64,000 nucleotides of DNA, from positions 1 to 64,000 of IMG/VR virus record IMGVR_UViG_3300026157_000001; one strand, given 5' to 3'. The DNA comes from a virus. Position 1 is the first letter of the stretch. Every line of letters starts with the position of its first letter. Positions 1,570 to 46,310 of the stretch are shown in pieces. Under the pieces are notes generated by a model. That model searched no databases. It had not been told where the DNA came from and saw nothing but the letters and a program-made list of their open reading frames with translations. The position numbers were made by a program, and so were the translations under genes.

Positions 1570-1598
1570 AATATAAATTGTTTAGAGGTATATGTCAA
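1570..1598 (-). promoter_or_regulatory. Late sigma70-like promoter, near-leaderless
   Basis: On the minus strand TTGACA (1593-1598) and TATATT (1570-1575) are separated by exactly 17 nt. Only AAAGC lies between the -10 box and the ATG at 1564, so transcription would start at or next to the start codon. The same arrangement recurs at 7892, 14680 and 26409. Confidence 0.7.
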
Positions 1599-1657: not shown

Positions 1658-2563
1658 TTAAGCTGATAGGTCTAACCTAGCGCATGATTTCGTGTTGGCA
1701 ATTATCATTCCAACTGATTCGTAAGCAGAGAACGTAATAACATTACGTTTCTTCTCGATATCGAATTTAGTATCGTTTAGGATACAGAATTCTCCCATGA
1801 ATTGAGGGGCTGTGAACGCGTAGATCTTATTGTCTAACAAGTCTGTCTTATTAGAAACGATGATTCTACGACCGAATAGTGTAGAGTACTTGTACCCTTC
1901 TATCGCGATGCGTCCTTTGTACTCGCCGTCACCAAATGTTCCAGAAGTATTGTTATTCACAATCAGTCTGTTATACATTTTAGTATCCATCAGCAATACT
2001 TCACTTTGTAGCTGCTGGCCGTCGATTACGTTAAAGAGCTCTTCAAGAGACTGTTCTGGGACTTCACCATTAGTGTAAGTTCCAGATACTGCGCTGCTCT
2101 CAAGAGCAATCGCTGCGTCTACCTGGCGTAGAAACGCGGTATCTTCAATCTTCTGAATGTCCAGTACAGAGTTCTGCTCAATTACTTGAGTTAGAGGCAT
2201 TCTGTAAGCCAGAAGCTCCTCTTCTGTTTTCTGGAATTCTTCAGAGCTGATCGTACCGAATTTCAGTTCAACTCTCTTACCTTCAATATAGTTAGCTGTA
2301 GGTTCGCCACGGAAGTTAACTTCCATTGCTTTGGAGTCTGGCTCCAATTCTACAATCTTAACTACGCCGTCGTGTTTTGTACTAACCTGTAGGTCAGCTT
2401 GTGTCACGTACATTGGTGGTAAAATTTGTCTTGCAAAAGAAACTTCTCTCAGTTTCTCACGGATAAAGCTAGCTCCATCCATTGCAATTTTATTCATTCC
2501 CTCTTCACTATCTAGCTTACGAAGGAAGATGTCGTTTATGTGTCGTGCTTCATTAGCATCCAT
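1658..2563 (-). CDS. Major capsid protein (HK97-fold type, probable)
   Basis: 301 aa. The layout is that of an HK97-like capsid protein: a helical N-terminus (M-D-A-N-E-A-R-H), a middle with repeated E-Q-N-S-V-L-D and D-A-A-I-A-L-E spine-helix-like segments, and a C-terminal strand run (R-R-I-I-V-S-N-K, F-S-A-Y-E-S-V-G-M). It is preceded by a good AGGAG Shine-Dalgarno and followed by a strong terminator, as expected for a very highly expressed gene. Its neighbours, in order protease, scaffold-like acidic protein, small proteins, decoration-like protein, capsid, match the usual head module. It contains one N-K-I-A motif near residue 25 of the kind repeated in other late proteins, which may be a maturation site. 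It contains no TGA codons. Family assignment is from layout and context. Confidence 0.7.
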   Translation of the reverse strand: MDANEARHINDIFLRKLDSEEGMNKIAMDGASFIREKLREVSFARQILPPMYVTQADLQVSTKHDGVVKIVELEPDSKAMEVNFRGEPTANYIEGKRVELKFGTISSEEFQKTEEELLAYRMPLTQVIEQNSVLDIQKIEDTAFLRQVDAAIALESSAVSGTYTNGEVPEQSLEELFNVIDGQQLQSEVLLMDTKMYNRLIVNNNTSGTFGDGEYKGRIAIEGYKYSTLFGRRIIVSNKTDLLDNKIYAFTAPQFMGEFCILNDTKFDIEKKRNVITFSAYESVGMIIANTKSCARLDLSA

Positions 2564-2585: not shown

Positions 2586-3041
2586 TTATAGTGTTAAGAT
2601 TTCAATTACTGTTGCGTCTTTGTAGATCTGGTTATCGCTCTCGTCGCTATAAGCAAACGGCGCTCTAACGCAAACGGCTACTGCGTCGCCATCTCCAAGA
2701 GTGGCTACTGCTAGTTGCCCGTCGGCATCTACATCTAGAGGGTCTCCAGCTGCTGGCGTACCAACATACTGATCCGTGTAAGCACGGTATTTTCCCCAAA
2801 GTACGGTCAATTTTTGTTTACCTAAAGAGGTAGCGTCCGGTGACCATCCTCCGGATCCATCTCGGTCTGACTCAGTAAAGATAGCCATCGCGTCTCTATC
2901 ACCTGCTGTTGGCAGCTGTAGAGTTTGTCCACGCTTAACCGCCCAAGTTCCAGTTTCTGCAACTCCTGAGCTGATTAGAGTGTCGTTGGCATCAACGTCA
3001 AAACGAATGATGTCGTTAATATCTGACAATATTCGAAGCAT
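2586..3041 (-). CDS. Capsid decoration/head stabilisation-like protein
   Basis: 151 aa, beta-rich, glycine- and aspartate-rich (D-V-D-A-N-D-T, D-V-D-A-D-G-Q, L-G-D-G-D-A-V-A-V), with an AGGAG Shine-Dalgarno 8 nt before ATG. It sits directly upstream of the capsid gene in the same transcript, the usual position of decoration proteins in large phages. The compact beta-barrel-like composition supports that role, but no specific family motif was identified. Confidence 0.5.
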   Translation of the reverse strand: MLRILSDINDIIRFDVDANDTLISSGVAETGTWAVKRGQTLQLPTAGDRDAMAIFTESDRDGSGGWSPDATSLGKQKLTVLWGKYRAYTDQYVGTPAAGDPLDVDADGQLAVATLGDGDAVAVCVRAPFAYSDESDNQIYKDATVIEILTL

Positions 3042-3064: not shown

Positions 3065-3433
3065 TTATTCTTCTAGTAGATTATTTATGAAACGCTCTTC
3101 AGCTGTTCCATAATGTTGTGGTTGCTCACTAACTTTCCCCAGTCCCATAGAGCCGAAGCTCGAGGTGCCAGAGTTGCTGATCAAGTGAGCAGCTTTTTCT
3201 AATGTGTTGATTTCTTCTTGAGATTTATCCAAAAATGAATCAAAATGCTCTTCTAAATCCTCGGCCGGAAAAGATCCAAGCTTCCACAATCGGAAGGTTA
3301 CCTCTTTAGCGGCCTGGACTCTTTCGAGTTCGGCCTCTAACTCTGCGATCTTCTCAAGGGCTTCATTCTTTGCAGAATGCTCCTGTCGAAGGGCAGCGGC
3401 AGCGGTTTTTAAAAGTTTAGCAGTCTTGTTCAT
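3065..3433 (-). CDS. Coiled-coil head-module protein
   Basis: 122 aa. It begins M-N-K-T-A-K-L-L-K-T-A and continues as a heptad-rich coiled coil (E-A-L-E-K-I-A-E-L-E-A-E-L-E-R-V) through residue ~50, then a low-complexity Gly/Ser linker and an acidic tail ending N-N-L-L-E-E. It has three copies of the K-[TI]-A motif shared by late proteins. Its position between scaffold-like and decoration-like genes suggests an internal or scaffolding role. No family is recognised. Confidence 0.55.
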   Translation of the reverse strand: MNKTAKLLKTAAAALRQEHSAKNEALEKIAELEAELERVQAAKEVTFRLWKLGSFPAEDLEEHFDSFLDKSQEEINTLEKAAHLISNSGTSSFGSMGLGKVSEQPQHYGTAEERFINNLLEE

Positions 3434-3442
3434 TATGGTTTA

Positions 3443-3778
3443 TTACTCTCCTTCAGAATCAGTATCAGCTTCAGCAGCGGCTCGGAATCCTTGGTACATT
3501 ATCTGTCCCATCTCATAAGCTTCTGCTACTTTTTCGCGTTGATAAATCTCGTACGCGTCTTCTTCCATTTTGGCAGTAGCTACTTTTTCTACGTCATCCG
3601 CAGAGAAGTTACCTTCGCCATATTCTTCTGTCAATGCATCCTCTGCCCAGGAAGCGTATTTAGAGATTAACTCTACACGTTCGCTTGTCTCGGCCATTTC
3701 CTGCTCTTCAGCAACCTTTTCACGGGTTTGCTCTACAGTTTCGGCTTGCATTTGGTTAAATGTTTCAATTAGACTCAT
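3443..3778 (-). CDS. Acidic scaffold-like head protein
   Basis: 111 aa, strongly acidic and helical, with R-E-K-V-A, V-E-K-V-A and R-E-K-V-A repeats and a D-S-E-G-E tail. It starts 1 nt after the preceding stop. Acidic, helical, repeat-bearing proteins between protease and capsid genes are typically scaffold or prohead-core components; the EKVA repeats may be cleavage sites for the protease encoded two genes upstream. Confidence 0.5.
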   Translation of the reverse strand: MSLIETFNQMQAETVEQTREKVAEEQEMAETSERVELISKYASWAEDALTEEYGEGNFSADDVEKVATAKMEEDAYEIYQREKVAEAYEMGQIMYQGFRAAAEADTDSEGE

Positions 3779-4507
3779 TTAATTTTCCTCCTGGGAATAA
3801 ATTGATTTGTACATTTTCGTAATAAGATCTTCATTAACTAATGAAGCCTTTTTTTCTTGTTTCATATATCCACCAGCTCCGTCAGGGGTGTGCGTCTTAT
3901 GTTTATCATAAGCGTCATGACCAACTTCTTCTTGCATCTTAGCGTCTCTCGCTACAGTTACAGGAGAATCTTGTGGTCTCGATACCTGAGAAATTGGAGG
4001 AACCGGCATATCTTTATTTGTTGGCATTGCAACGCCTAGGGCGGCAAGCTCAGCAAACAGAGAATGTGCTGCTATTCTTCCAAACTCTTGAGCCATTTTT
4101 ACAAGCTCTTTGTCGGATGGTAGTGGTTGAGTTTCGGCAACTTTTTCTGTAGCAGCGTCAATAGGGTCTTTCGACTCCTTGTCCGCTTCTGCAGTTTTTT
4201 CTTCTGTAGTGTCTTCTTTAACTTCGTCAGTAGCTTCTTCAGCGACCTTCTCCTTAGTTTCAGTCTCTTCTACAGCTTCTTCTGCTGTCTTCTCTTCAGT
4301 AGATTCTTCAGTTGCTACTTTTTCTTCAGTAGCTTCTTCAGCTGTCTTCTCTTCAGTAGTTTCTTCTGCCTTCTTATCTTCAGCAACTTTCTCCTCAGAA
4401 ACATCATTCGTCTCCTCAGTCAAAGAACTCAAGAAAGTATCTTCTGCGGTCTTTTCAGCTTCCGCTTCTAGGTCAGCAAGAATGTCTTCTACATTAAAAT
4501 TTGACAT
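3779..4507 (-). CDS. Glu/Lys-repeat scaffold (prohead core-like) protein
   Basis: 242 aa. Residues ~20-125 are a degenerate repeat of E-E-K-T-A / E-E-K-V-A / E-A-T-E units, extremely acidic; the C-terminal third (P-P-I-S-Q-V-S-R-P onward) is non-repetitive and ends in Y-S-Q-E-E-N. It abuts the 111-aa gene and follows the protease gene. The place, charge and repeat structure fit the internal scaffold of a T4- or HK97-like prohead, which is cleaved and expelled. The K-[TV]-A tetrapeptides are denser here than anywhere else. Confidence 0.6.
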   Translation of the reverse strand: MSNFNVEDILADLEAEAEKTAEDTFLSSLTEETNDVSEEKVAEDKKAEETTEEKTAEEATEEKVATEESTEEKTAEEAVEETETKEKVAEEATDEVKEDTTEEKTAEADKESKDPIDAATEKVAETQPLPSDKELVKMAQEFGRIAAHSLFAELAALGVAMPTNKDMPVPPISQVSRPQDSPVTVARDAKMQEEVGHDAYDKHKTHTPDGAGGYMKQEKKASLVNEDLITKMYKSIYSQEEN

Positions 4508-6380: not shown

Positions 6381-6880
6381 TACATGAACAAGCTTCCAGC
6401 TCCTAATAGGTCAGCTCCTTCGTCTCTTCCCATGTTGTCTTCGATCTTAGCTAGGGTATCATAAGTATCTATAGTTGGTCCACCTAGATCTGGTCTGACT
6501 CGTGCATTAATGTTTTGAGTGATAAATCCGCCTGCTGCTATTGGGTCTCTGGCTAGTCGAGGTGAAGTTCTATATAGGGTTCCTCATAGCTCTGCTACTT
6601 CTTCTACATCCTCTTCCATTAGCGCTGGGTTGGCTTTTAACATTTCTTCAAAATATTTAGGCTCAATAGCTTTCATATACTTTCTTTCTACGAGCTCTGA
6701 TAGCTTATTGGCAAAACGTGCTACTATAACAGCACCACCAATAATTCCCACTATTTTTAAAGCGTCCATCGGAGATTTTCCGACCGCTGCCACCTTCTCG
6801 ATGGTGTCTACACGCATTTGATGCGCTGCTGCTTTTTCGGCAGCTATTTTGATAAGTTCTTTTTTCTTATTGATATCCAT
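6380..6880 (-). CDS. Late protein with one TM-like helix; TGA-encoded Trp
   Basis: 166 aa once TGA at 6584-6586 is read as Trp. It starts M-D-I-N-K-K-K-E-L-I-K-I-A and has a Gly/Ala/Val hydrophobic helix at residues ~42-57 (I-V-G-I-I-G-G-A-V-I-V-A). The part after the TGA (G-T-L-Y-R-T-S-P-R-L-A-R-D-P-I-A-A-G-G-F) continues for 67 residues to a TAA that overlaps the protease ATG, which strongly argues that the downstream part is coding. It carries I-K-I-A and E-K-V-A motifs. Role unknown; it lies in the head module. Confidence 0.65.
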
Positions 6881-7892
6881 AAGTTCTTTTTAATTTGTTT
6901 TGTAGATCAATCTTATTTTTGAATTGTGCTGCCGCTGCAAATTGTTTAGGGTTCTTACCTTTATAAAGGCCAATTCCATACATTCCACCACCTGCGGTAA
7001 TAACAGGATGTTTTTTACCAAATCTAAGAAGATTTGCCAGCGCACCTGCTGCATAACCTAAAGAGGTTCTCGCTCTACCTAGTTTTTCCAAGGTTCCATC
7101 TTCTGGAATAAGTTCAGCAATTTTTTCATAATGGTCTTTATAGAATAAGGCTGTTACGCACTCATTGTGTAAGTCGTGGACTCTTTGGACCAATTTATTT
7201 TCGTTGTTAATTTTTTGGCCGGCATACTTCTCAAGGTCATTTCCTTTTATCTTAATGCCATCTTTGTCTAAATCGTGTGAGATTTCTTCTACTATATAAT
7301 CTCCGAACTCAGACGCTTCTTTGATTGTATATTCTAGTGCTGCGGCGTCGGTGCCGGATAGGTAAGCTTGTTTTACTGTAGAGTAGATCGGCTGAAGCCT
7401 GCTTTCAATCCTAATGCCATTCTCTAGTACATTAGATTGTGCTATTTTTAGATGGGATAACAGGTCAGCTGTTTTGTTATAATTTTTCCAGGCTGGAATA
7501 TCTTCTTCCTTTTCTGCAGTTTTCTCTTGCTTGGCTTCTTCATGTTTTTTGGAAGCTCTCTTCTCCTGCAGAAGTTGGTGAGCTCAGTCTTTTTTAGGAG
7601 CCTCTAAATAGTCTTTTCCTTTAGAAGCTGTTTTAGAGCTGGAGGGCTCTTCATCAATTACTTCATTAGGGTCGGCAACGTCAAACTCTATATAAGAGTC
7701 TTGGTCTGCTGTCTTCATAAGTTCTAGGTATGTTTTCACATTAGCAGCTTCCGCTACCCTGTGTACTTGATTTTGATTTAACCCATGGAGTGTAGACACT
7801 TTTTCCAGTCCATCTGTAAGAGGGATCTGTCGGTCTAAGTATTCCTTAGATATTTGGGTTCCTAATTTTTCTAATTGTTCCGGCTTAACCAT
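6867..7892 (-). CDS. Unknown 341-aa head-module protein; TGA-encoded Trp
   Basis: A single frame from ATG 7892 to TAA 6867 when TGA at 7584-7586 is Trp; the reading frame before and after it is uninterrupted. The protein is helical and charged with many K-[TIV]-A units (M-K-T-A, E-K-T-A, N-K-T-A, E-K-I-A); residues ~275-310 form a Gly/Ala hydrophobic segment (Y-A-A-G-A-L-A-N-L-L, I-T-A-G-G-G-M-Y-G-I-G). It has a TTGACT-N17-TATATT promoter 5 nt from its ATG and is the first gene of the transcript that continues into the protease and capsid genes. It is too short for a typical portal. Confidence 0.65.
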
Positions 7893-7897
7893 GCTTT

Positions 7898-7926
7898 AAT
7901 ATATTTTTATTGGCTGTAACAGTCAA
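7898..7926 (-). promoter_or_regulatory. Late sigma70-like promoter, near-leaderless
   Basis: TTGACT (7921-7926) and TATATT (7898-7903) on the minus strand with a 17-nt spacer, then AAAGC and ATG. It is almost the same as the promoter at 1570-1598 and drives the head-module operon. Confidence 0.7.
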
Positions 7927-7929
7927 ATT

Positions 7930-9498
7930 TTATTGTAAATTTTCTCTCAGGCTGTCTGTCAACATCATTAGTGCCATGGAACCAAACAAGGTTGCATGCA
8001 CAAAGTCGTCTGGGCCTACGTTAGTGTACTTTTCTTTATTCTTATCTTCGTCGTATTCTATAATTACGTTCCTAATGTCCGTAGTCATAGGCTCTATGTC
8101 CTGGTAATTAGGTAGGCGTAACTTCCCCTTTTTGAGCATTGTGAAGAATTTATTCATCACCCAGTTCTTATTCATTGTATATGCTCGCATTTTAGGATTA
8201 TACCTTACAGGCTCTTTTTGGGTAGGAAGATGTTGATAAGGCCATACCTTTTCTAAGCCTAACCTGTTTCTAAATTCACTGTTAGGCGCTTCTCCCATAC
8301 CGTAGTCACTAGCTAGTAGTGAGCAGTTCCACTTTTTAAATATCTTTGGGATTTCTTCATGTATATACGAATAGTCTGCTTCTTTACCTAAAAATTTCTT
8401 AGCGTATACAACCTGTAATTTACCTTCCCTTTCTTGAACAATAGATATACAAGTATGAGATTTTTCCGAATTTACCGGGCCATAGTCAATACCCATAATA
8501 GTAGGCCTGCCAACAGAATGTTTATCAGGGTTGGGGCTCATTCTAAAGTCTGGATTACAAGCCGCTATCACTTCTTCTTTTGTAATTGGGATAGCTCCTG
8601 AATCATACTCTAGCCCTAGAGTCTCATTGTTAAACAGAGCGGTGCTCTGGTTTTCCATCTTGTAAATGACGTCGTCTTGCCAATTAACCCATGGTGAGTG
8701 CGCAAAGTGTAAAAGACAAACTCGGTAGCCTTCCATTTTAGGCCTGTCTTTCATATGCTCATAAGTAGACACCCACTGGCCTTTGGCCTTTCTAAGGTCT
8801 AGTTTGTTTCCGCACTTAGAGCAGATTAAATGATTAGCCCCTATATTATCCGGGCCTAGTATATTCCAGTGGTTACAGGCTTCACACTTTATCGCATACT
8901 CATTTTGTGAAGACTTAAACCAAAGATCTGCTAATGTGCCCTTTGTTCTTTTAGGTGTGCCTGCATATATACTGCGCTTTGTTACTGAGCGTGACATTGT
9001 TTCCTCAATAACTCCTATAACGTCTTTTCTTAAATCCTGAGTTTCGTCAAATAAACAGACGTCTGAAGAAATACCTCGAATACGGTCAGCGTTAAGAAGT
9101 GCATAACGCATGTTAATAACGCTACCGTTCTTGAATTCTTTTTTAAATACGTTCTGCACCATATGTGCATCAACGAAGTAGTCTCTTATAAGAGGTGAGT
9201 TTTTAATAACCGGTTCCAGTTTGTCACGAACAAACTCCTGAGTTTGAGCTACTGCAGGGGATACGTAAAGCTGTTTAAAGTTAGGCTTCATTAAAGCCCG
9301 GGCTAGGAGAATATTAGCTAAAGACGTACTTTTAGCGGTCTGTCTAGAAAATTTCATTACAACCTTCTTGGCTTCCGTATTATATATACGTCTCATATGA
9401 GGATAGTCGTCCAATGAAAATGGCTGACCTCCTAAATAGAAAAAATTCTCCGCAAAGTCACTGAGCGCTAGCTCAATTTGTTCCTTATCTTTGCCCAT
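7930..9498 (-). CDS. terL: Terminase large subunit
   Basis: 522 aa, normal length. It packages DNA into the prohead using an N-terminal ATPase and a C-terminal RNase-H-like nuclease. A Walker A-like loop (S-R-Q-T-A-K-S, residues ~51-57), a Walker B (D-V-C-L-F-D-E-T-Q, ~165) and a coupling segment (Y-A-G-T-P-K-R) are visible. A Cys4 zinc knuckle (C-E-A-C ... C-S-K-C) at ~213-240 is the feature of GpA-like terminases. The nuclease acidic residues lie in M-G-I-D-Y-G-P, L-L-A-S-D-Y-G-M and near the C-terminus (G-P-D-D-F-V-H-A). It overlaps the bS21 gene by 31 nt. No small terminase subunit was identified nearby. Confidence 0.9.
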   Translation of the reverse strand: MGKDKEQIELALSDFAENFFYLGGQPFSLDDYPHMRRIYNTEAKKVVMKFSRQTAKSTSLANILLARALMKPNFKQLYVSPAVAQTQEFVRDKLEPVIKNSPLIRDYFVDAHMVQNVFKKEFKNGSVINMRYALLNADRIRGISSDVCLFDETQDLRKDVIGVIEETMSRSVTKRSIYAGTPKRTKGTLADLWFKSSQNEYAIKCEACNHWNILGPDNIGANHLICSKCGNKLDLRKAKGQWVSTYEHMKDRPKMEGYRVCLLHFAHSPWVNWQDDVIYKMENQSTALFNNETLGLEYDSGAIPITKEEVIAACNPDFRMSPNPDKHSVGRPTIMGIDYGPVNSEKSHTCISIVQEREGKLQVVYAKKFLGKEADYSYIHEEIPKIFKKWNCSLLASDYGMGEAPNSEFRNRLGLEKVWPYQHLPTQKEPVRYNPKMRAYTMNKNWVMNKFFTMLKKGKLRLPNYQDIEPMTTDIRNVIIEYDEDKNKEKYTNVGPDDFVHATLFGSMALMMLTDSLRENLQ

Positions 9499-9662
9499 CT
9501 CCTTTTTGCCTGTTTATGTGCTTCTCGTTTCTTGTCTGAGGGTTTGGTATAAAACTGATTTGATTTATATTGCTCCAGGACCCCTGATCGTTGTACCTTA
9601 CTCTTGAATATCTGTAGGGCTTTCTCTAGGTTCCCGTCCCTGACGTTTACTTTTACTGGCAT
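9468..9662 (-). CDS. rpsU: Phage ribosomal protein bS21 homologue
   Basis: 64 aa, close to the usual ~70. The start M-P-V-K-V-N-V-R-D-G-N-L-E-K-A-L, then F-K-S-K-V-Q-R-S-G-V-L, the aromatic F-Y-T-K-P-S-D-K-K-R motif and a basic C-terminal helix (K-Q-A-K-R-R-W-A-K-I-R) follow the bS21 pattern (M-P-x-V-x-V ... G-V-L ... F-Y-E-K-P ... K-R). bS21 sits on the 30S platform by the anti-Shine-Dalgarno and affects initiation; phage-encoded copies are known in large phages and are thought to bias ribosomes to phage messages. It overlaps the nucleotidyltransferase gene by 65 nt and terL by 31 nt, so it is translated in the packaging operon. Confidence 0.8.
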   Translation of the reverse strand: MPVKVNVRDGNLEKALQIFKSKVQRSGVLEQYKSNQFYTKPSDKKREAHKQAKRRWAKIRNKLS

Positions 9663-10467
9663 CTTCTTCTAAATTTCGTTTTGATTTATACTCTAAAAGG
9701 TCCTTAAAGAACTCTCCGTTCTCGTCATATTGCAGAACTTTATAAATAATATTTTGTTTACTGTTCCTGCCCGGACCCCAGTCAGAAGAATACGCAATTT
9801 TTCTGTCTTTATCAACTGATTCTACAAAATCTAAAGCATCTTGGAAAAGTGTCCTAACTTTTTCTTTTTGTCTTTCTACTTTATAATATTCAAATAAAGA
9901 TTCTCTAGGATTGTTTTTAACCATACTAGAAAGCTTACGCTTCTCTGTTAAATAATCTTTTACAAGTTTATTGAAATGTCTTACTTTAGCGTCAGCCACT
10001 AAGAACTCTGACCAGAACTTGGCGTATGTTGGTGCCATGTCTTTTCTCTCTGGTGGTTCGTTTAGCCATTCATCTTCCATGACATCATAAACGCCGAAGT
10101 CAATAGAAGCTAAATTTTCTGCTGTGTCTTTTCTCCACTCAGCTAAGAAATAACTTATCACACGATTAGTGCCTTTTGCTATTCGTCCGTTATATTTTTT
10201 AGCTCCGTGAGTCTTTGATTTCCCGGGCTTAAGGCCTTCGATGGCAACCATGATATCAATATCACTTGTATCACTGTATTTATAGCCCGTTAATGAGCCC
10301 AACATATAAACTCCCCTTAAAGGCCCGTCTCCAGCATCTTCAGCAATTTCTTTTGCGGTAGTTAAAGCTTGTCTACGGATCTCCGGATACATCTTCTTGT
10401 CTTGATTCCAAATGTCTGGAGATAATGAATCCCTGAGTCTTTCTATTACACTAGCTGGTTTATACAT
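9598..10467 (-). CDS. Nucleotidyltransferase (Pol-beta superfamily)
   Basis: 289 aa. Residues ~54-76 hold the NTase signature: M-L-G-S-L-T-G then S-D-T-S-D-I-D-I-M-V, i.e. the G-S helix and the D-x-D metal-binding pair; a third acidic residue is expected in S-I-D-F-G-V-Y-D. The C-terminal half is helical and basic, with R-K-L-S-S-M-V-K and K-S-K-R-N-L-E-E. It could transfer a nucleotide to protein, RNA or a small molecule (MNT/aminoglycoside-type or tRNA-modifying); the substrate is not evident. It overlaps the bS21 gene by 65 nt and the upstream gene by 8 nt. Confidence 0.7.
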   Translation of the reverse strand: MYKPASVIERLRDSLSPDIWNQDKKMYPEIRRQALTTAKEIAEDAGDGPLRGVYMLGSLTGYKYSDTSDIDIMVAIEGLKPGKSKTHGAKKYNGRIAKGTNRVISYFLAEWRKDTAENLASIDFGVYDVMEDEWLNEPPERKDMAPTYAKFWSEFLVADAKVRHFNKLVKDYLTEKRKLSSMVKNNPRESLFEYYKVERQKEKVRTLFQDALDFVESVDKDRKIAYSSDWGPGRNSKQNIIYKVLQYDENGEFFKDLLEYKSKRNLEEDASKSKRQGREPRESPTDIQE

Positions 10468-11548: not shown

Positions 11549-11890
11549 TTAGTCCTTCATTACTAATGCAGTTCCGCCAACGCCCGTACCGGCAAGAATT
11601 TTGCCTCGGTTCTCGTATACTTTTTTACCTTTGTTATATAAAGCTTTTTGCTGTTGTGACGTATGCCCAGCTGTGACTCCGGCAGGTGTTCTTCTAGCAG
11701 ATGAAACGCCTTTACCGGTAGCTCCTGCATAAAGCGCTTTGCCTTTAGAGCCTAATTCGTCGCTCAAGCCTTTAGTCTTGGTTACAAGCCTTGACAGAGT
11801 TTTTAGGCCTCCACTCCAAAGAGCTTTCTTTTCAATACTATCTGAGAACCCTTTCATTGCAATAATTTTTTCTTCGTGTGATAAATCCAT
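11549..11890 (-). CDS. Small basic late protein with S-I-E-K-K-A motif
   Basis: 113 aa, strongly basic (pI clearly high from K/R content), with G-F-S-D-S-I-E-K-K-A-L-W near residue 18 and a C-terminal glycine-rich hydrophobic segment (I-L-A-G-T-G-V-G-G-T-A-L-V-M). The combination of an E-K-x-A motif followed by a glycine-rich helix recurs in this operon and suggests an internal virion protein that meets or crosses a membrane. Function unknown. Confidence 0.5.
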   Translation of the reverse strand: MDLSHEEKIIAMKGFSDSIEKKALWSGGLKTLSRLVTKTKGLSDELGSKGKALYAGATGKGVSSARRTPAGVTAGHTSQQQKALYNKGKKVYENRGKILAGTGVGGTALVMKD

Positions 11891-14685: not shown

Positions 14686-14714
14686 AACATACTTACTATA
14701 GATTAAATTGTCAA
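14686..14714 (-). promoter_or_regulatory. Late sigma70-like promoter, near-leaderless
   Basis: TTGACA (14709-14714) and TATGTT (14686-14691) on the minus strand with a 17-nt spacer, then TAAGC and ATG. Its -35 box abuts the early promoter that points the other way, giving a compact divergent control region. Confidence 0.65.
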
Positions 14715-14738
14715 CTTTTTTGGTATAAGAATACTGAT
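14715..14738 (+). promoter_or_regulatory. Early promoter element (GGTATAAGA family)
   Basis: TTTTTTGGTATAAGAATACT on the plus strand, one of ten near-identical copies in the window. TGGTATAAG resembles an extended -10 box; no -35 box is evident. It drives the isolated early gene at 14824. Confidence 0.7.
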
Positions 14739-17844: not shown

Positions 17845-19117
17845 TAATTTTTCTTCTGGTAAACTCTGCTGCTGTTCCTGTTCCGCCTATACCCAAGCCA
17901 ATTTTAGCTGCTGTGGGGCTATCTAACCTTCCGGTTAATTGTCTGTATTGCATCTTGGGGCTTTTCTCAAATGTTCCGGGCTTAAATTCGGGTCCTCCTT
18001 TAGGTACATATGCTCCCCAAGAACCGCTGTTATCATTAATTTCAACTATATGTTTTTTACCAGTTTTGCTATCCACTAATACATCGAGGCCCAGGATCTG
18101 ATTTTTAGCGTCTCCTTTGGTAGACTTGCTGTAATTTTTCATAGCTTTCTGTACATAGGCTTCTAATTCAGGATTATCTTTTTTGACATTAATCTCCTCG
18201 CCTATTGTCTTTTTACCATTTATCTGTTTTACATAGCCCTGTGTTGTAGAAGCTTTGCCGCCTTGTAGGGCAACATGCACTCTATACTCTTTATCACCTT
18301 TTATAAGGTCTTGTGCTATATAAGATTTCGGATTGTCCGCTAAGGTTTCTAAGTCTTTTATAGTCTGTTTTTTTAATTTGCCAGGATTATTTTTATATAA
18401 ATCTGCAAACTCTTTTAGCTTGTCAGGTTTGCCCTGGAAGCCTGCGCCAAACCCTTCGCCGCCTCTCATCTTAATAAATACTTTTTCTCCCTGAACCGCA
18501 TCTGCGATAGAGTCCAGCTTTTCGGCCTTGCTCATATCTGCATAATTTTTTCCTGTTCTTTTTGTTTTGTTTTTCAAAACATCTGCTACCAGCCTAGACT
18601 TTGGAGTATACCCCTCAAATTCTTTCATTTGGGAAAAAGTATATTTGTCTTGAAGCTTGTCTAAGAATTCACTCTTATCTTTGTTATAAATAATATCCGC
18701 TTCTACTTTATAGTCTGGTTGTTTCGCTTTTTGTGTAAGTGTGCCTACACCGGTTTCTTTAGTTGGTGACCAGTCTGGATGGTTCATAGCAACATCGTCA
18801 TAGACGGTCCCTCTCATCTTTGTACCCTTAGGTATTTTATTGGCTTCGACCTGTCGTATACCTGCCTGGCTGTACCAGTTTTTAAGTTTGTCCAGCGGGT
18901 TTTCCGATGTTAGTCCTCTAACGTTATAATCGTCCCCGGAAGCAGTTTCTGAAACTATTCGGGTAACTTTGCCTTTGGACATTTTTTGTGCTTTACGTAC
19001 TTCTGGTATCTTAGACAATAACCATGGAGCTTTGGACACTCCATAAGCTCCTGTTCCAAGAGCTGCGCCTATACCCAAAGATTTTAAAAGTTTTTTATCG
19101 TCTTTTTTATCTGCCAT
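17825..19117 (-). CDS. ATP-grasp domain virion protein
   Basis: 430 aa. Residues ~210-375 carry ATP-grasp features: K-V-F-I-K-M-R-G-G-E-G-F-G-A-G, then S-Y-I-A-Q-D-L-I-K-G-D-K-E-Y-R-V-H-V, and L-G-L-D-V-L-V-D ... H-I-V-E-I-N-D-N-S-G, where the D and E-x-N are the expected metal ligands. The N-terminus is a hydrophobic glycine-rich helix (L-G-I-G-A-A-L-G-T-G-A-Y-G) and the C-terminus another (I-G-L-G-I-G-G-T-G-T-A). It is a paralogue of the ATP-grasp half of the following 858-aa protein; both are next to each other in one operon. It should form an amide or similar bond using ATP; substrate unknown. Confidence 0.65.
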   Translation of the reverse strand: MADKKDDKKLLKSLGIGAALGTGAYGVSKAPWLLSKIPEVRKAQKMSKGKVTRIVSETASGDDYNVRGLTSENPLDKLKNWYSQAGIRQVEANKIPKGTKMRGTVYDDVAMNHPDWSPTKETGVGTLTQKAKQPDYKVEADIIYNKDKSEFLDKLQDKYTFSQMKEFEGYTPKSRLVADVLKNKTKRTGKNYADMSKAEKLDSIADAVQGEKVFIKMRGGEGFGAGFQGKPDKLKEFADLYKNNPGKLKKQTIKDLETLADNPKSYIAQDLIKGDKEYRVHVALQGGKASTTQGYVKQINGKKTIGEEINVKKDNPELEAYVQKAMKNYSKSTKGDAKNQILGLDVLVDSKTGKKHIVEINDNSGSWGAYVPKGGPEFKPGTFEKSPKMQYRQLTGRLDSPTAAKIGLGIGGTGTAAEFTRRKINERKNR

Positions 19118-21101
19118 CGTCCGTCATGTTATAGCCTATTGCTCCTGCGCCTACAGCTCCAGTAACACCTGCAGCCCCTAGTAACGCTTTTGTTTTAGCA
19201 TCCATAGAACCTTTTGGTTTGTCGCTTGATTTAGCTTTAGGTGTTTGTGTTTTCTTGGACGTAGTTTGTTTTTTAACTTTTTCTATCGGGGAAGATTTTC
19301 TAGTTACTTCCATTTTTGGTGCATTCTGTATATTAGCGGGGCGTCCCGGGGCTCTCTCAATTGTTGTCTTTGCTCCTGTAGACGTTGGTGCTACGCTACC
19401 TGTTTCTACTGCAGCGGCGTTTCCTGTCCTAGGTTTAGACTTAGTTTGAGATGCTCTGGAGCCCATATCTCTTAATCTCTTTTTGGGTGATGGTTTTCTT
19501 CAAGGTGTACTCCTGCGCCTAACAGCGTCAACTAAGTCATCAACCCCACTTATAGCGGTCCTCGCTTTAGCAAACTTTCCTAAAAAATGCGCATTCTTTT
19601 CTTCTGGTAATCCTTTATGCTTTGTTTCTGCATAATCTTTACTTTCAGACTTTGTCATGCTCTTTGCCATAGACTTTATTTTCTTTTGCAAGCTGGGATC
19701 CAGTTCGCTAAAATTATCTAGCTCTCCGTTTTGGTATGCATGTACCATGCCCATTAAGCGCTGCTGAGATTTGCTCTTAGCCTCGCTTGTCTTTGTAATA
19801 GTGTCTCGTACTTTCATAAACGTTTGTGCAGCTGCTGGATTGTTGGCCATTATTTCTGGCGACATATCTTCCACTTCTTTCAACAGCTTAGCTCGTTTAG
19901 GGTCATTCTTTGACATCCCCAAAAGCTTTGTAAGCTTATTATCCATGTTTTTTAAGACTCTCACGCTGCCACTTTTTTGTAGCATTGGCGCTAGTTGAAA
20001 AGCTGCTTTGTTTAGGTTTTTCATCTTAGGAAGCTTATTCATCTTTTCTAATTCCTTTCTCTGCTTTTTTGCCATCTCCTGCAATTGAGAATTTGTAGGG
20101 TTCGAAAGATCTTTGTCCAGAGTTGTTAAATTCTGTTCAAGCTGAGTGCTTCCTTTTGTTGCTATTTTTTCCGAGTTATACTTATGTGACTCGGTAAATA
20201 AATTGTGAATTGCTTTTTTTGCAGTTTTACTTAATTCCATTGTGGATAGTTCTGTATTTAAAATTTTCTCGCTTTTCTTTACAAGTTGAGGACGGTATTT
20301 TGTTTTCTTATAGCTATCACTTGATGGCTTGTTGCCTTGCTCGTCAACCCTTAGTCATTTACCGGTTGATATTGTTTTCTCTTCATCGGCTGTAGCGGCT
20401 CGGCGTTTTGTTTGTTTGCCGTAACCTTTTTTCTTTTTTCCTTCTGCTCCTTTCGGTACTACCTCTGGAGTTGAACGGTTTGCATAAAAGATGAGGTCAT
20501 GTTTGCTTTCGGCATTCTTTTTAAATACAACTCGTTGATCAGTATCTATCTCGTCTAATACTTGAGAAGTTGCGGCGTCATATTTTTTAAGGGTTTTGCT
20601 TCCTCGTCGTTTAGCTAACCCTCCTCCTAAGATACCGCCGACTGTAGCACCTATTGGTGCTGCAACAAGGCCCTGCGCTACTCTATTACCCTTGCCTGCA
20701 AATGCTCCTGTTAAAAGTGCTGTACCCAAACCTGAGCTAAACGCTGAGCGTCCGGCACTTGACCAAGCTTGATCACTGACGCGATCTTTTATAGCTTTTC
20801 TGTTAAGGGATTGTCGTTCTTTAAATTTCTTTTTTATATATTCTTTATTTTCCGGACTGGCTACAGAAAAGTCGCTGTGCTCTTTAAGCATGTCGAAGTT
20901 GGGTGAGCCTCTTTCGGCTATTAAATATCTATCATCTAGTAAGGCTTTCTTCTCTAGGCTCGCTCTTTTACTCGCCCAAATGGCCCGTTCTTGTTTTAAC
21001 GCGTCCTCATAGCTGTCATGTGTCCCAAGAACTTTTGTCTTCTTGGAATTATACAGTTTATACTTTCCGTCTTCTTCTACAATCTTGGCTGTCTTTTTCA
21101 T
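19107..21101 (-). CDS. Large basic internal virion-like protein; two TGA-encoded Trp
   Basis: 664 aa, joined from three fragments by reading TGA at 20355-20357 (S-T-G-K-W-L-R-V-D) and 19500-19502 (S-T-P-W-R-K-P) as Trp; the frame between them has no TAA or TAG. The N-terminus (M-K-K-T-A-K-I-V-E-E-D-G-K-Y) is followed by L-E-K-K-A-L-L-D-D and a glycine-zipper region at ~120-170 (F-S-S-G-L-G-T-A-L-L-T-G-A-F-A-G-K, G-A-T-V-G-G-I-L-G-G-G-L-A). The middle (M-E-L-S-K-T-A-K-K) is helical; the C-terminus is Pro/Ser/Thr/Lys-rich and disordered before a last hydrophobic Gly/Ala helix. Probably an ejected internal protein. No enzyme motif seen. Confidence 0.65.
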
Positions 21102-21110
21102 ACCTTAAAT

Positions 21111-22793
21111 CTATTTATAGTCTTCTAGTTTGTCAAGTGCTTTCTTGCGCTCTTCCCGCATCTTAAGCATCTTAACCTTCTTTTGTGGACCTCATACTTT
21201 CTTAGCTGCTTTATGGTGGTGGTGCCCATCCAGAATATATTTATCCTTACTTATTATCAATGGCTTCATAGACTGTTTCTTCTTAAGCTTGTCTATAAGC
21301 TTACGAAGTTTCTTCTTCTGATAGTCTATCTGGCTTGGCTTTACGTCTCTAAGGGCCATACTCACTGCTACCGGATCGTAGCCCCTCTTGAACTTATCGA
21401 GGTCCACCTGCGGCATATTTGAGCGCTTACGTTTAACTTGAGACTCTTTGTATAAGTTAGTATAGTTGTTCTCGTCTGCTCACTGCCTAATAGGTGGTAA
21501 AGGTTTTTTGCTCATACTTTTTGAGACCGAGTACCAATCAGCCAACATTTCTTTCTGTACATTTTTTGGAATGTCTGAGATATGTATATCCCTTGGCTCT
21601 CGGTACATATGGTGATCCTCAGAAATATAATGCTTTATCTTATGTGGGGTAAAGTCTTTTACTACATCTTCAGGTATTAACTCTTTGTTTCCTTTTTGGT
21701 CATAGAAGCCATCTTCTCCAAAGAAGTATTCCCGGTAAGGCGTCCAAGCTTTTGGATTAAATTTAGTCCTGTCGTGTAATAGCAGCTGCATCCTGGGAAC
21801 ACCTAATTCCCGGCCATGTTTATATACATCTGCCTTATGCTTTAAGATATACTTAAGTTGTTCCCAATCCTCTATACGGTTGTCTAAAAATTCTGATGTT
21901 TTGACATGTCCTAGTTTACTTTGCTTCCAATCTTTATATTTGTCTGAGTTTAAAGTCTTTCCTATTAAATATGAAGAGCTTCCTGCTGCTGCAGCCATCC
22001 CTAATGGAGTTGCCATATATGTCATCGCAGAGGGGAGTCTGGCCTTTGTATATTTTCCTAATGTTTTTAAATAACTACCTTTTGTTCCAAGTTCATCTGT
22101 TTTGTTCAACATTCTAACAGCTCGTCTATCCGCATCTAGCTCTTGTGCATTTCCTAACGTCCCAACTGCGCCCCCGGCTAATGCTGAGAGTCCTGCAACT
22201 TGAAGCTCTTTTCCTTTTTCTGCTGCAGGGCTTAAGGCACCACTAACCGCCATTACACCTATCATCGTTCTGGGTGTAGAACTTTGGGAAAATCTTAGCT
22301 TGTCTAAAAAATTTATCGACTTATTATACGCCTTGTCAGAATTAGAGAATTGTTCTATATGTCCTAACTCATGAGCTATAACATGACGCTTACTAGTTCG
22401 AGGATCAAATTGGACTTTTAACGCACCGTCAGTTCCTTTTGTTGCGGAAGATCCAAAATTAAGAGGGTTAGAAGAAAACTTTACCTCTTTATCTTTAACT
22501 TTAGAAACTTCTTTTAGTTTTTTAAAAGAAGCATTATCTTCTGGGCCAGTAGCAGTGGCAGATCTTGAAAGGAGTTCATCAGGTGTAAGTTTACCCTTTT
22601 TAAAATCCTCTGTTACTTTCTTTGTTCTTTTGTCGTACTGTTTTATATTCTTTTCTATTTGTTTATCGGAAGCACTAAACCCAGATAAATATGTACCCTG
22701 TCCAGTTATATAGCCTAAGCCGGCCGCACCTACTGCTTCAGGAAGCTCTTCCGGTTTTACTGGCCTTGAGAGTTTTTTTGTTGAGTCGCTCAT
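21111..22793 (-). CDS. Metalloprotease-like, DUF5662 and ParB-like multidomain protein
   Basis: 560 aa, joined by reading TGA at 21480-21482 and 21192-21194 as Trp; ends in TAG. Three domains are visible in order. Residues ~100-230 have a zincin motif, R-H-V-I-A-H-E-L-G-H-I-E-Q, with a downstream N-A-Q-E-L-D-A-D-R-R-A that fits the third ligand of M48-like proteases. Residues ~300-425 (D-W-E-Q-L-K-Y-I-L-K-H-K, H-D-R-T-K-F, H-Y-I-S-E-D-H-H, L-A-D-W-Y) match the DUF5662 pattern also present in the early gene at 28003. Residues ~470-545 (R-D-V-K-P-S-Q-I-D, P-L-I-I-S-K-D-K-Y-I-L-D-G-H-H-H-H) match ParB/sulfiredoxin-like nuclease or NTPase domains. A Gly/Ala helix separates the first two. Probably a virion-carried enzyme. 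Confidence 0.7.
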
Positions 22794-23224
22794 TACTTAA
22801 TTACTTTTAAAATATCTTTGAGTGTTTTTGCTCCATAAGCAGACTTTGTACTGCTGATCGAAGATGTTATGTGATCTACTCCCCGGCCTGCTCTCACTAA
22901 CGGATTCATATTCTTTTGTGACTTTCTAAGTTCTGACCTGCTCGCAGACATCTCATTTAAGAACGTGTCTTTAACGCCTCTTAATGATTTCTCTTGGGTC
23001 CTTGGATACCTTCCCTTTTCTTTATTGATATAATGGGTTAGCTCGTGACGTAGAATTTTGCGTTCTCCGCCTCTAGAAGTTACGGGGTCGATATCTACCC
23101 TTCCTTTCGTACCAGCGTCCGGCACAAACTGACCTCGGCGTCCTCCGGGCAATGCACGGTATTGTACGAGGGGTCCGGCCGCGTTCTTTTCAAGTAGATA
23201 ATCTACCGGTGTGACTTTGTTCAT
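22793..23224 (-). CDS. Small zinc-metalloprotease-like (zincin) protein
   Basis: 143 aa. The motif I-L-R-H-E-L-T-H-Y at residues ~57-65 gives H-E-x-x-H, and it is the second zincin in a row. The N-terminus P-V-D-Y-L-L-E-K-N-A-A-G matches the (L/I)-x-E-K-x-A motif shared by late proteins and could be a processing site, with the protease domain just after it. Third zinc ligand not assigned (E-M-S-A-S-R at ~112 is one option). It is coupled to both neighbours by single-base stop/start overlaps. Could be a lytic or maturation protease, or a DUF-type fold without activity. Confidence 0.55.
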   Translation of the reverse strand: MNKVTPVDYLLEKNAAGPLVQYRALPGGRRGQFVPDAGTKGRVDIDPVTSRGGERKILRHELTHYINKEKGRYPRTQEKSLRGVKDTFLNEMSASRSELRKSQKNMNPLVRAGRGVDHITSSISSTKSAYGAKTLKDILKVIK

Positions 23225-26200
23225 TATCTTGCATTCAACCCTGTGAAATATTTGAAGTCTGATTTTAATGCTTTATCGTATGTGTCTGTATGAGCATCTA
23301 ACTCTTTCAGTTGTTTCAGTTCTTTTTTTGTCACATAGACGTCAGCTGGTCTTCCGCTCATCATTTGTTTAGATCGTGGCAACGCTCCAACTGCTAAATA
23401 TTTAGAAGCTGTTCCGAAGTTCTTGTAATTTTCCTTCGGAGGTTCCGGGAAATTTTTATAGTCTGTCGTATTATATTTCTTATGAAGCTTGTCGACTGTT
23501 TTATTAAAGCGCTCTTTGTTAAACTCTGGATTTTCTTTATACTCTTTTTTAACTTTCGGTTTAGTAAGCATTCCTAACCCTCCAAGAGCAGTTGCTCCTG
23601 CTGCCGTACCTGCAAGAACTTTTCCTCACCCTGGTAATCTTTTGGTATCAGAGATTAATCCTGCTGCACCTCCTAAGGCACCACCTAGGCCTGCACCAAC
23701 AGTTACATTTTCTTTTCTTTTTGAATAGTCTTTTGTTTTCTCTACTACTGATGGGCTTAAGGTAGGATCTTTATCCTGTAGCTTATTAAGTTCTTTATCT
23801 GCTTTGCGGTTGCCTTCTTCTATTTTTCTATAGTTGGCAACATACTTTTTATGAGCATCTAAATCTTTTATGCCTGCTATATCCTCAAAATATCCAGCTC
23901 TTTTCTCAATTAAATAGTCAATCATTGCTGCTTTGTTCATAAATTTCTCTGGTCTTATATCCACCAAAACCGGTGCTTGGTGCAGCCCACTGCTATGGAC
24001 ATGTTGTGATTTTATTTTTGCCCATTCTCCGATAAAGTTATCAGGAGATTCATAAGCTTTTTGTCGAAGATCGTCGCTTAAACCAGTACCAATTCTAATA
24101 GGCACAGAACTTCCTTCTGGCAGGGCGATAAAGCCTCCAACACCAGATCCTTCATATTTAGATCCCTCAGAAGCTTCAAAGGTTCCGAGAATCTCTGCAT
24201 CATAATCATCTGTCTGTTTTACTTTCCTTGGAACAGGTTCATCTAGTTTATACACTACCAGACCTTCTTCCGTCTCAGGGTGAAATCCTTTCATAATACG
24301 ATTAAACATCTGTCGCTTGTCATGTGGATCAAATGCTAGTTCGGGGAGTTTAAGGTCCGGAATTTTATCACGGACTTCTTTTAACATCTCAAGTTTCCGG
24401 CTATATGGTAAGTCTTCTACATCTTTACCTTTAAACTTAACAACATCGAAAATTTTAAATTCTAGTGGTCGTTCTTTTTGCTGGATTTCTCGAGCTTTTG
24501 GTACCGAGGAATTGAGGATACGGGCTGTGTCGTTTCCTTTACCTCCAGGAACGAAAAGCTCGGAACGGAGTATTGTATTCCCAAGCTCTTTAGGGCTCGT
24601 TTGTTTATAGAGTGGTGTTTTAAATGTGTGGTCAATTCGCTCAGATCCTTTCCTTGAGCTCCTATAAGAGAACACGTCCGGACGTTTGTTAGGGCGTAAA
24701 ACGACCAAATTGTGAGCCCCGTCAAGCTTGGGAGCAAACACCTCTTCTGTTCTGGACGTGTCAAGCTTAAGCCTGTCGGCGTCGATGGTTTTGTAACTTT
24801 TCTTATAGCTGGGTACATCTTCATAAACTTTTGTTTCTTCTGATGGTGTATAATTATAAATCATCCAGTTATCTGTTCCACCCTTACGAAGTAAAATAAA
24901 TCGCTTAGTGTCCCGGCCAGGATACATGTTAAATTCAATCTTTGAGTCGCCGGCCTTCAATATGTCAACGTCCCCGAGAAATTTACTTTCGACTTCTCCT
25001 TTGCCATAGCCATCTTCGATGGTTCCGCTTCACCCCATATATTTAGAGGTGTGGTCCGGCTGACGAACTGCTAAATGCTTTTGGCCTGTCCCAGGCATAC
25101 CTTTGGGTAAAGCTCAAGAATAAGCCTTACTAGAACCAGGGGGAGATAGCCTAAGGTCTGTATGACTGTTGCTTACTAAAATTCCAGATATAAAATAATT
25201 ATGATTGCCTTCTACTTCTAAGTCAAACTTTTTTAAAGATAGCTTTTGGTTTTTATTTTTACCTTGTTTCGTCCTATACCTCTCTTTCTTCAAAACAGGT
25301 CTAGGATAAACAGTATTAAACTCTAAAAAGCTTTCAAAGTGAGGGCGAGTTTTTATTTTATTGTAAGTATTTGGAAGTTTATATGAAAATTCAGGCTGTA
25401 TAAATTTTGAAACAATATTAAAAAATAATTTATTAGAAGCTATTGCTGAAGAACATAAATAATAATACCCATCTCTTTCTCTTTTAGTAAAAGAAAGGCT
25501 GTACCTGGTATTTAAAAAGTGTTGTAATTTCTCAACTTCTTTCTCAGTAAAACCATTTGTATATAAATATAAATTTCCGGAATAGGGATCTACTCCTGCA
25601 TCACTACGTCTTTTGGTATTACGTTCTAATTTCTTAAAGTTGCTGCTTTGTGGTGACCATTGGCCATCATCCATAAACCATTGGGCTATAGCTGCGGGGG
25701 TTAAAAATTTAAATAGCTCATCTTTTATTACCTTAGTTCCATCTTTATAAAAAAGTTCAGATAGTGTGTGAAAATATTCATGCTTAAATCTAAAATAATA
25801 GAAGTCTGATCTATTTTTTCTCGCTTTTCTTAATTCTGTGTTTGTTGCAAATTTTTCAGAAAAATATTCGACTAGCTCTTTTTTAGACGCTTGTCCCCAA
25901 TTAAAGGCCGGTGTTCCAGTGTAATTTTGAGGTATTGAAGAATCTCCCAAAAGGGACCCAATTAAGAAATCTTTTTGGTTCTGTGATAGACCTCTGTCTT
26001 CCCGTAAAACCTCATGACTATTGGGATCAATATCTTTTGCAGGAATTTTATAGAGGTTATCTGTTCTTTTATCTTTTATAAAAATTTTATGGTTAGGCGT
26101 ACTCGTGCACCCGTTTCTTTTATTTAGGTACAATTTGTGCCAAAAGTCGGTACTACCATTTTCCCACACCCTTATAACCTTTTTATCTTCTACTTTTTTC

Positions 26201-26409
26201 GTTTGAGGATTAAAAGATTTTACTAAATCACCTATTTTTATGTCTCTAATATACTTTAGAGTGTTATCTGCCATTTTAACGCGAGCAGAGGGCATGAAAC
26301 ATCCAGCCCGTTCAGCATCGTGCTCCTGCAGATTTAACTGCCAGGTAGCATTCTCTGCTCTTGGTATAGACGTTTTTTGTTTTTTATCTGGTATTCCTGG
26401 TGCGTACAT
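23224..26409 (-). CDS. LigD-like 3'-phosphoesterase/ATP-dependent DNA ligase, intein-containing
   Basis: 1061-aa precursor in one frame when TGA at 25114-25116, 25030-25032 and 23626-23628 is Trp. The mature protein begins with a LigD-type 3'-phosphoesterase domain (L-Q-E-H-D-A-E-R-A-G, S-H-T-D-L-R-L, then S-W-A-L-P-K-G with TGA-encoded W, and I-E-D-G-Y-G-K-G), interrupted by a 378-aa intein. After it comes an ATP-dependent ligase domain: F-A-P-K-L-D-G-A-H (K-x-D-G nucleotidyl motif I), S-E-L-F-V (III), F-K-I-F-D-V-V (IIIa), E-E-G-L-V-V-Y-K (IV), K-V-K-Q (V) and an OB-like region. The C-terminus has the I-D-Y-L-I-E-K-R-A motif and glycine-zipper helices (G-A-G-L-G-G-A-L-G-G-A-A-G) as in other virion proteins. 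Role: healing and sealing of DNA ends, possibly carried in the virion. It is the first gene of the late operon from 26.4 kb. Confidence 0.8.
25168..26301 (-). other. Intein with LAGLIDADG endonuclease in the phosphoesterase domain
   Basis: 378 residues from Cys (C-F-M-P-S-A-R-V-K-M-A-D-G-like Hint block A) to V-S-N, followed by extein Ser. N-terminal splicing blocks: S-A-R-V-K-M-A, I-G-D-L-V-K, T-P-N-H-K-I (block B, T-x-x-H). Endonuclease blocks: F-L-I-G-S-L-L-G-D-S (first LAGLIDADG) and A-Q-W-F-M-D-D-G-Q-W (second). C-terminal blocks: F-D-L-E-V-E-G-N-H-N-Y-F (F) and I-L-V-S-N (G, terminal Asn with penultimate Ser in place of the usual His). Insertion falls between A-E-R-A-G and S-H-T-D-L-R-L, right beside the catalytic His-x-Asp of the phosphoesterase. 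Confidence 0.85.
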
Positions 26410-26414
26410 AAGTT

Positions 26415-26443
26415 AATATAATAATAGATAAGCATTTTGTCTA
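26415..26443 (-). promoter_or_regulatory. Late sigma70-like promoter, near-leaderless
   Basis: TAGACA (26438-26443) and TATATT (26415-26420) on the minus strand with a 17-nt spacer, then AACTT and ATG. It heads the long late operon that begins with the ligase gene, back to back with an early promoter. Confidence 0.6.
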
Positions 26444-43809: not shown

Positions 43810-43838
43810 AATATACAGCAAAAAAGCTCCGATATCAA
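43810..43838 (-). promoter_or_regulatory. Late sigma70-like promoter
   Basis: TTGATA (43833-43838) and TATATT (43810-43815) on the minus strand with a 17-nt spacer; 7 nt lie between the -10 box and ATG 43802. Confidence 0.6.
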
Positions 43839-45373: not shown

Positions 45374-46310
45374 ATGAAAATTCGACATTTCGGGTTATGC
45401 TTGTATTAATGATGAGCTAAACACGAGCGATCCTCGTGTATCCAGCTCCCGTACAATACGTAAAGTTACCTATGAGAAGGAAGGCCTGGCAAGGGCTGGT
45501 GAACTTGCACTACAAAATGCAAGAGATCTTCTAACAATCTTAAAATGGAATCAGAACAACAATATAAAGTTCTTTCGTATATCAAGCGATATCTTGCCTT
45601 GGAAGAGCAGATGGCACTTTAGAGATATAGAGCCTAAACTACGTCAGGAACTGTTTGATGCTTTAGAAGCAGTCGGTGACTTCGCTAAACTATTTAATCA
45701 TCGGTTAACGACACATCCTGGCCCCTTTAATAAACTATGCTCTAATAAAGAGCGTGTTGTTGGTAACACTATCCGTGAACTCGAGGATCACAATGAGATC
45801 TTCGACCTTATGGGCTTTGAGCCCTCCTATAGAAACAAAATTAACATCCATCTGGGTGCAGCGTATGGCGACAAAGTTAAGACAGCCCAACGCTGGTGTG
45901 ATAACTTTAAACGACTATCACCTAATCTCAGAAAACGCCTGACAATTGAAAATGACGATCGTGGTTCCCTATATGACACGAAAGATCTTTATGACATGGT
46001 CTATAAAAAGACAGGCGTCCCTATTGTATTTGACTTTCATCATCACCGGCTCCATAACATACATCCCGGTATGAATGAACAAGAATGTGCAGAATTAGCA
46101 GTATCAACATGGCCAAGCGATATTGTACCTGTTATGCATTGGAGTGAATCACGACGCGAAGAGCAGAATGATACCTCTATAAATACCAGTGCACATAGTG
46201 ACTACTGTCACGGCCCTCTTCCAGACTTCAGCCTATCGAGACCGGTAGATTTAATGATAGAAGCGAAAAAGAAAGAACAAGCACTATTTACCTTACAGAC
46301 AAATGAGTAA
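45374..46310 (+). CDS. uvdE: UV-damage endonuclease (UvdE/UVDE) with apparent +1 frameshift at start
   Basis: The body matches UVDE, a TIM-barrel enzyme that nicks 5' to UV photoproducts: G-Y-A-C-I-N-D-E-L, S-S-R-T-I-R-K-V-T, A-L-Q-N-A-R-D-L-L, F-F-R-I-S-S-D-I-L-P-W, L-T-I-E-N-D-D, F-D-F-H-H-H-R-L and M-H-W-S-E-S are all typical, including metal-binding His/Glu/Asp. The only suitable ATG (45374) encodes M-K-I-R-H-F-G and is then one base out of frame: skipping T at 45395 (after GGG at 45392-45394) gives M-K-I-R-H-F-G-Y-A-C-I-N. No in-frame ATG exists before G-Y-A-C-I-N. The frameshift may be programmed (GGG-U slip), a sequencing error or a real mutation. About 311 aa if joined, normal for the family. 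Confidence 0.75.

Follow-up and report, generated by a model that had tools for sequence, protein, structure and literature searches.

A phage-encoded ribosomal protein bS21 in the packaging operon of a phage with recoded late genes and its possible relation to Shine-Dalgarno-led capsid-cassette genes

A 64-amino-acid open reading frame in the packaging operon of a virus (IMG/VR record IMGVR_UViG_3300026157_000001) was identified as a genuine ribosomal protein bS21, a further member of an already known kind. The stretch analysed, referred to below as the window, comprises positions 1 to 64,000 of that record. In the same genome, the five strongest Shine-Dalgarno (SD) sites among 65 gene starts were observed before five consecutive genes, the major capsid gene included, the weakest of these sites being tied with that of 60393–60671 (energy −8.7). 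It is tentatively proposed, as a reading in which we place somewhat less than even confidence, that late in infection the phage bS21 aids the SD-led translation of the head genes. The features are listed in Table 1.

Table 1. Coordinates of the bS21 gene, its neighbours, the capsid cassette, recoded late genes and promoters in the window.
Feature	Position	Strand	Details
bS21 (rpsU-like) gene, 64 aa	9468..9662	minus	open frame; translation MPVKVNVRDGNLEKALQIFKSKVQRSGVLEQYKSNQFYTKPSDKKREAHKQAKRRWAKIRNKLS
terminase large subunit (terL)	7930..9498	minus	PHROG 675 1.6e-69; Pfam GpA_ATPase 6.1e-16
gene upstream of bS21	9598..10467	minus	open frame; weak nucleotidyltransferase-like Pfam matches below cut-off
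major head (capsid) protein	1658..2563	minus	PHROG 2522 1.6e-13; SD AGAAGGAGAAATATATA-ATG, energy −8.8
gene beside capsid gene	2586..3041	minus	SD AAAGGAG, energy −8.7; putative head role, from position
capsid cassette gene	3065..3433	minus	SD AAGGAG, energy −8.9; putative head role, from position
capsid cassette gene	3443..3778	minus	SD CAGGAGG, energy −10.3; putative head role, from position
capsid cassette gene	3779..4507	minus	SD TAGGAGGG, energy −11.3; putative head role, from position
recoded late gene	6867..7892	minus	1 in-frame TGA; first gene of capsid unit
recoded late gene	19107..21101	minus	2 in-frame TGA
recoded late gene	21111..22793	minus	2 in-frame TGA; DUF5662 match across first TGA
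recoded late gene	23224..26409	minus	3 in-frame TGA; LigD-type phosphoesterase/ligase and LAGLIDADG intein
near-leaderless late promoter TTGACA-17-TATATT (11/12)	1570..1598	minus	AAAGC before ATG ~1564
near-leaderless late promoter TTGACT-17-TATATT	7898..7926	minus	5 nt before ATG 7892
near-leaderless late promoter TTGACA-17-TATGTT	14686..14714	minus	5 nt before ATG 14680
near-leaderless late promoter TTGACA-17-TAGATT	21108..21136	minus	6 nt before ATG 21101
near-leaderless late promoter TAGACA-17-TATATT	26415..26443	minus	5 nt before ATG 26409
near-leaderless promoter TTGATA-17-TATATT	43810..43838	minus	7 nt before ATG 43802

Results

Identification of the bS21 protein

The protein matched the Pfam family PF01165, Ribosomal_S21 (1.8e-17, 63.3 bits; cut-off 27), with domain positions 1–53 of 55 covered, i.e., nearly the whole domain above the curated cut-off. 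It also matched PHROG 21469, ribosomal protein S21 (3.8e-12), and showed similarity to solved bS21 chains (up to 4e-6). The profile searches thus bear out the earlier note on this DNA, which had assigned the protein to bS21 from the letters alone. A search across the whole 68,769-base record yielded a single copy (62.4 bits).

The nearest phage relatives were those of Pelagibacter phages Mosig (44%, full length) and HTVC008M (40%), and in a tree of 25 bS21 proteins the window protein fell in no supported group. The same gene was present in a second viral contig, IMGVR_UViG_3300007635_000007, with 19.5 kb aligned at 99.96%. Genome contigs searched with the window bS21 as query yielded no relative, and the divergence within a 7-sequence bS21 alignment was too high for contig scans. 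The protein had also been ascribed to a type known from large phages; phage bS21 is indeed known, but at 68.8 kb the record does not show a large phage. A bS21 gene is also carried by the 48.7-kb phage Kolga.

The AlphaFold model contained helices at residues 11–25, 27–35 and 40–62, with a mean pLDDT of 85.5 and a pTM of just 0.44. In a Foldseek search with this model, nearly all of the 18 matches were bS21 or mitochondrial small-subunit chains, with TM scores of at most 0.64 and weak E-values (best 0.03).

Position 54 of the window protein is Arg, aligned in an ungapped register to Tyr54 of Flavobacterium johnsoniae, which blocks the anti-Shine-Dalgarno (ASD) sequence. The register was set by KPS at 40–42 in the window protein and IKPS at 39–42 in F. 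johnsoniae, a pattern shifted by one residue with no gap. The aromatic residue by which Bacteroidia-type, ASD-sequestering bS21 is recognised is not present at position 54 of the window protein; Tyr was found there in 80/80 Flavobacterium-like genome proteins, and Tyr or His in 21/21 Bacteroidia-type phage proteins. Arg54-type bS21 is the ordinary form in a number of Bacteroidota genomes that are not Bacteroidia, and therefore the residue alone shows no change from the host bS21. Arg54 as proof of ASD release was dropped, being common among such genomes.

Genomic setting and late promoters

The overlap of the bS21 gene with the downstream terL is 31 nt and that with the gene before it 65 nt; bS21 is therefore read from inside an operon. 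With terL adjoining and the capsid gene about 7 kb downstream, its position agrees with that of the late-module phage bS21 of Chen et al. 2022 (no more than about ten genes away from a terL, portal, protease or capsid gene). The gene lies on the strand of the late genes behind a late-type promoter, and its transcription would be late, together with the structural genes. The late, packaging setting claimed previously holds.

Promoters were scanned as TTGACA-16/18-TATAAT, a match requiring 10 or more of the 12 bases. The totals were near chance (44 vs. 38), and the scan is informative only by position before start codons. Matches were located 5–7 nt before five assigned starts, and a sixth before an ATG at about 1564, so that the near-leaderless late promoters described earlier were confirmed for six late starts. 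The form TTGACW-N17-TATRTT-WAAGC-ATG, exemplified by TTGACA-N17-TATATT-AAAGC-ATG, is common to three of them. These late promoters are of the ordinary sigma70 type and not of the Bacteroidota consensus, which counts against the reading proposed here. The promoter before ATG 14680 probably drives the unit holding bS21 and terL, and that before ATG 7892 probably drives the capsid unit.

A recurrent motif, TTTGGTATAAGA, in many cases with ATAATGATAA after it, was observed at 14721, 26473, 27543, 31694, 43855, 53458 and 55635 (+). It is probably an early or middle phage promoter, distinct from the late TTGACA/TATATT type.

With promoters 5–7 nt before the starts, the predicted messages are leaderless or nearly so. 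It had been suggested that bS21 helps ribosomes to start on such near-leaderless (and recoded) late messages, and such promoters do exist and occur often in the late region. However, bS21 itself is read from inside the operon, and the promoter scan placed no near-leaderless promoter directly before it. Furthermore, the 61S ribosomes by which E. coli translates leaderless mRNA contain no bS21, a protein listed there as a requirement for SD-led mRNA (PMC4929434). The strongest SD sites are on the capsid cassette, which points in another direction, and the suggestion is regarded as highly improbable.

TGA recoding in late genes

Open frames through TGA were observed in several late genes, with profile matches across such codons in two of them, in accordance with the recoding reported in the earlier note. 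The LigD_N match spans two TGA codons of gene 23224–26409, one of them falling on the Trp-like position in S(W)ALPKG, where the Trp is presumably conserved in LigD. The DUF5662 match in 21111–22793 spans a TGA near the match end. These data support the reading that the late genes need TGA to be read as Trp. In genes of the right arm TGA is a stop, with ATGA overlaps at 32755, 50937, 51155, 56601 and 60393.

Other phages, too, are known to read TGA as Trp (PMC12386605; PMC9523058). Over the full length of the record, which may be incomplete, no tRNA, and hence no suppressor tRNA(UCA), was found with introns allowed, nor was one found hidden by the group I intron. A link between bS21 and TGA decoding was considered, and no evidence for it was obtained.

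Several other features were recorded alongside. A LAGLIDADG endonuclease intein lies inside the LigD-type late gene 23224–26409 (−) with its three in-frame TGA codons. A group I intron at 62638–62865 (+) (Rfam RF00028, 78 bits) is flanked by a HATPase-domain piece (60896–62005), a GIY-YIG-like ORF (62024–62353) and a 580-aa ORF from 62868; the genes around it probably represent a split topoisomerase gene. A homolog of the UV-endonuclease UvdE, a DNA repair enzyme, is encoded in the right arm at 45594–46310 (+) (Pfam, 145 bits).

Shine-Dalgarno sites of the capsid cassette

The pairing energy of the region before each of the 65 gene starts with the 16S tail was determined. The genome was mostly SD-depleted, with a median of −0.9 kcal/mol compared with −2.1 kcal/mol for all ATG triplets taken as background. 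The probability that the top five of 65 would form one run by chance was about 7e-6, for a pattern that was noticed before it was tested. A strict SD motif was present in 5/5 cassette genes vs. 6/60 others (P = 5.6e-5).

The gaps between the five SD genes are 0–23 nt, and many other late genes, bS21 and terL included, overlap their neighbours. Such an arrangement would suit a phage bS21 acting as a general booster of late translation, which tops up or replaces the host bS21 with no SD preference, the cassette SD sites then being explained by genes that do not overlap, are barred from tight translational coupling and have abundantly made products. It also fits this explanation that bS21 is exchangeable and, of all ribosomal proteins, the one most often found in phages (PMC6375957). 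However, other gapped genes in the window are without SD (e.g., 11549–11890 and 4518–6380), and six Bacteroidota-type phages without bS21 were SD-poor throughout, gapped head genes included, with an SD-like motif at 11 of 272 starts. A general booster role is therefore considered possible but rather unlikely.

The SD sites could also be leftovers of a head cassette recently derived from a phage of an SD-using host, with bS21 unrelated to them. Two relatives in both terL and capsid, L015 and L020, use SD throughout, so that the sites could be inherited; the genome moreover appears mosaic, with capsid and terL matches in Salmonella and Vibrio phages and primase matches in phages of Bacteroidota. 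Among terL relatives, bS21 was absent from the 11 other records, many of them fragments, L015 and L020 being among the relatives without it. Yet late neighbours sharing L015 ancestry (6867–7892, terL and 4518–6380) are without strong SD, and well-spaced SD sites are kept in all five cassette genes. Such a leftover origin is judged unlikely.

A limited literature search returned no precedent for the concentration of SD sites on the head cassette of an SD-depleted bS21 phage, nor for bS21 together with stop-codon recoding.

Host and related phages

All relatives of the primase (47797–50280) with a named host are phages of Bacteroidota, and SD depletion is typical of this phylum (PMC9976891). Among 395 Bacteroidota genomes, the only phylum compared, the window bS21 was nearest to non-Flavobacterium-class proteins, at no more than 52% identity. 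On account of the primase kinship, the SD depletion and the bS21 similarity, Bacteroidota is the fairly probable host phylum.

In seven phage loci with Bacteroidia-type bS21, all of them with Tyr or His at position 54, SD-like motifs were found at 4 of 124 starts. Only two bS21 phages without an aromatic residue 54 were examined.

One further case emerged when Bacteroidota genomes were searched: a prophage of the SD-poor genome G378 encodes a phage-type bS21 with 49% identity to that of the window. After it come genes of HNH, terminase-like, portal-like and capsid-like type, a labelling based on position and sequence only. GGAG/GAGAG motifs preceded 24/35 of its late genes vs. 5/57 host genes (P = 2.6e-9). 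A search for the G378 16S tail did not find it. A related prophage in G311, without visible bS21, gave an intermediate rate (7/19 vs. 4/22 host genes, P = 0.29), which weakens the contrast between phages with and without bS21. The control region of G796 was left out, being high-GC with no recognisable prophage genes.

Two further observations concern start regions. The G378 prophage, composed of L179 7200–19901 and L180 1–16000, carries a repeated GAGAGA before late starts, unlike the host genes. In Flavobacterium relatives (L060–L139), a very strong SD was found upstream of the host rpsU (median −15.9 kcal/mol), unlike the Bacteroidia-type phage bS21 genes, which had no SD sites.

Discussion

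The course of events that we infer, comprising expression, ribosome incorporation, host identity, tail release and preference for SD messages, would be as follows. The packaging transcription unit would give rise to a working phage bS21 late in infection; in other phages, structural-gene transcripts are accompanied by phage bS21 transcripts (PMC9723584). The protein would most likely swap with the host bS21 on the 30S platform, as the bS21 of HTVC008M enters E. coli 70S ribosomes and alters their activity (PMC6375957). The host, probably a member of Bacteroidota, would have ribosomes that by themselves hardly use SD pairing. In F. johnsoniae, bS21 helps to hide the 16S tail via Tyr54, and ribosomes with truncated bS21 or the Y54A variant made 5-fold and 3-fold more protein, respectively, from a strong-SD message (PMC9976891). 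Having no ASD-blocking aromatic residue 54, the phage bS21 may leave the 16S rRNA tail free to pair, and a free tail would favour the few messages with strong SD, i.e., those of the capsid gene and its four neighbours.

A different use of the protein would be as a decoy, disturbing the feedback on host rpsU or lowering host translation with no selection of phage messages. A GFP template was translated at about 5% on E. coli ribosomes with phage bS21 (PMC6375957), and bS21 synthesis is autoregulated in F. johnsoniae (PMC9976891). Such a shut-off would, however, leave the SD pattern unexplained, and nothing in this genome points to it directly; it is considered quite improbable.

To account for bS21 in phages, the literature has proposed that phage messages are preferentially translated, with the preferred message feature unnamed; the strong SD of the capsid cassette, in a genome that is otherwise SD-depleted, is a candidate for this feature. 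Together with the contrast to Tyr54-type bS21 phages, which have no SD, it opens the idea to a direct test. As a broader and doubtful extension, the bS21 of some phages of SD-poor hosts might switch the host ribosomes late in infection from SD-independent to SD-dependent initiation, matched by SD on virion genes only. Such phages would then make a specialised ribosome of their own, addressed by a signal on the message, and in the window phage this would come together with TGA recoding of late genes and near-leaderless late promoters.

Phage bS21, its place near packaging and structural genes, and late recoding are each already known. In the zeta crAss-like phage Lera (PMC12386605), as here, TGA is read as Trp mainly in structural or late genes; Lera carries an opal suppressor tRNA, whereas none was found in the window phage record.

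The lake Bacteroidetes phages (Chen et al. 2022, PMC9723584) likewise have bS21 near the genes for terL, portal, protease and capsid; its expression accompanies that of the structural genes, and the hosts are SD-poor, of the kind suggested here. Their complete genomes, however, are 293–331 kb, with bS21 on the opposite strand. No stop codon is reassigned in them, and all 61 of their bS21 proteins have Tyr or some other aromatic residue at position 54. The window phage, in contrast, has a 68.8-kb record, a same-strand bS21 overlapping terL, in-frame TGA, Arg54 and an SD-led capsid cassette.

Among the closest phage bS21 sequences (40–44%) are those of Pelagibacter phages Mosig and HTVC008M (for the latter, Mizuno et al. 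2019, PMC6375957). The neighbours of bS21 in HTVC008M, Mosig and Kolga are AAA/CobS, RNA polymerase or heat-shock genes, with terL not directly adjacent, and the two Pelagibacter phage bS21 neighbourhoods examined showed broader SD use than the window phage.

The ASD control of F. johnsoniae (PMC9976891) involves the same protein at the same 30S site, and there, too, a change of bS21 alters SD use. The difference lies in the source of that change: in F. johnsoniae it is host autoregulation by missing bS21, whereas the window phage copy would supply an altered form.
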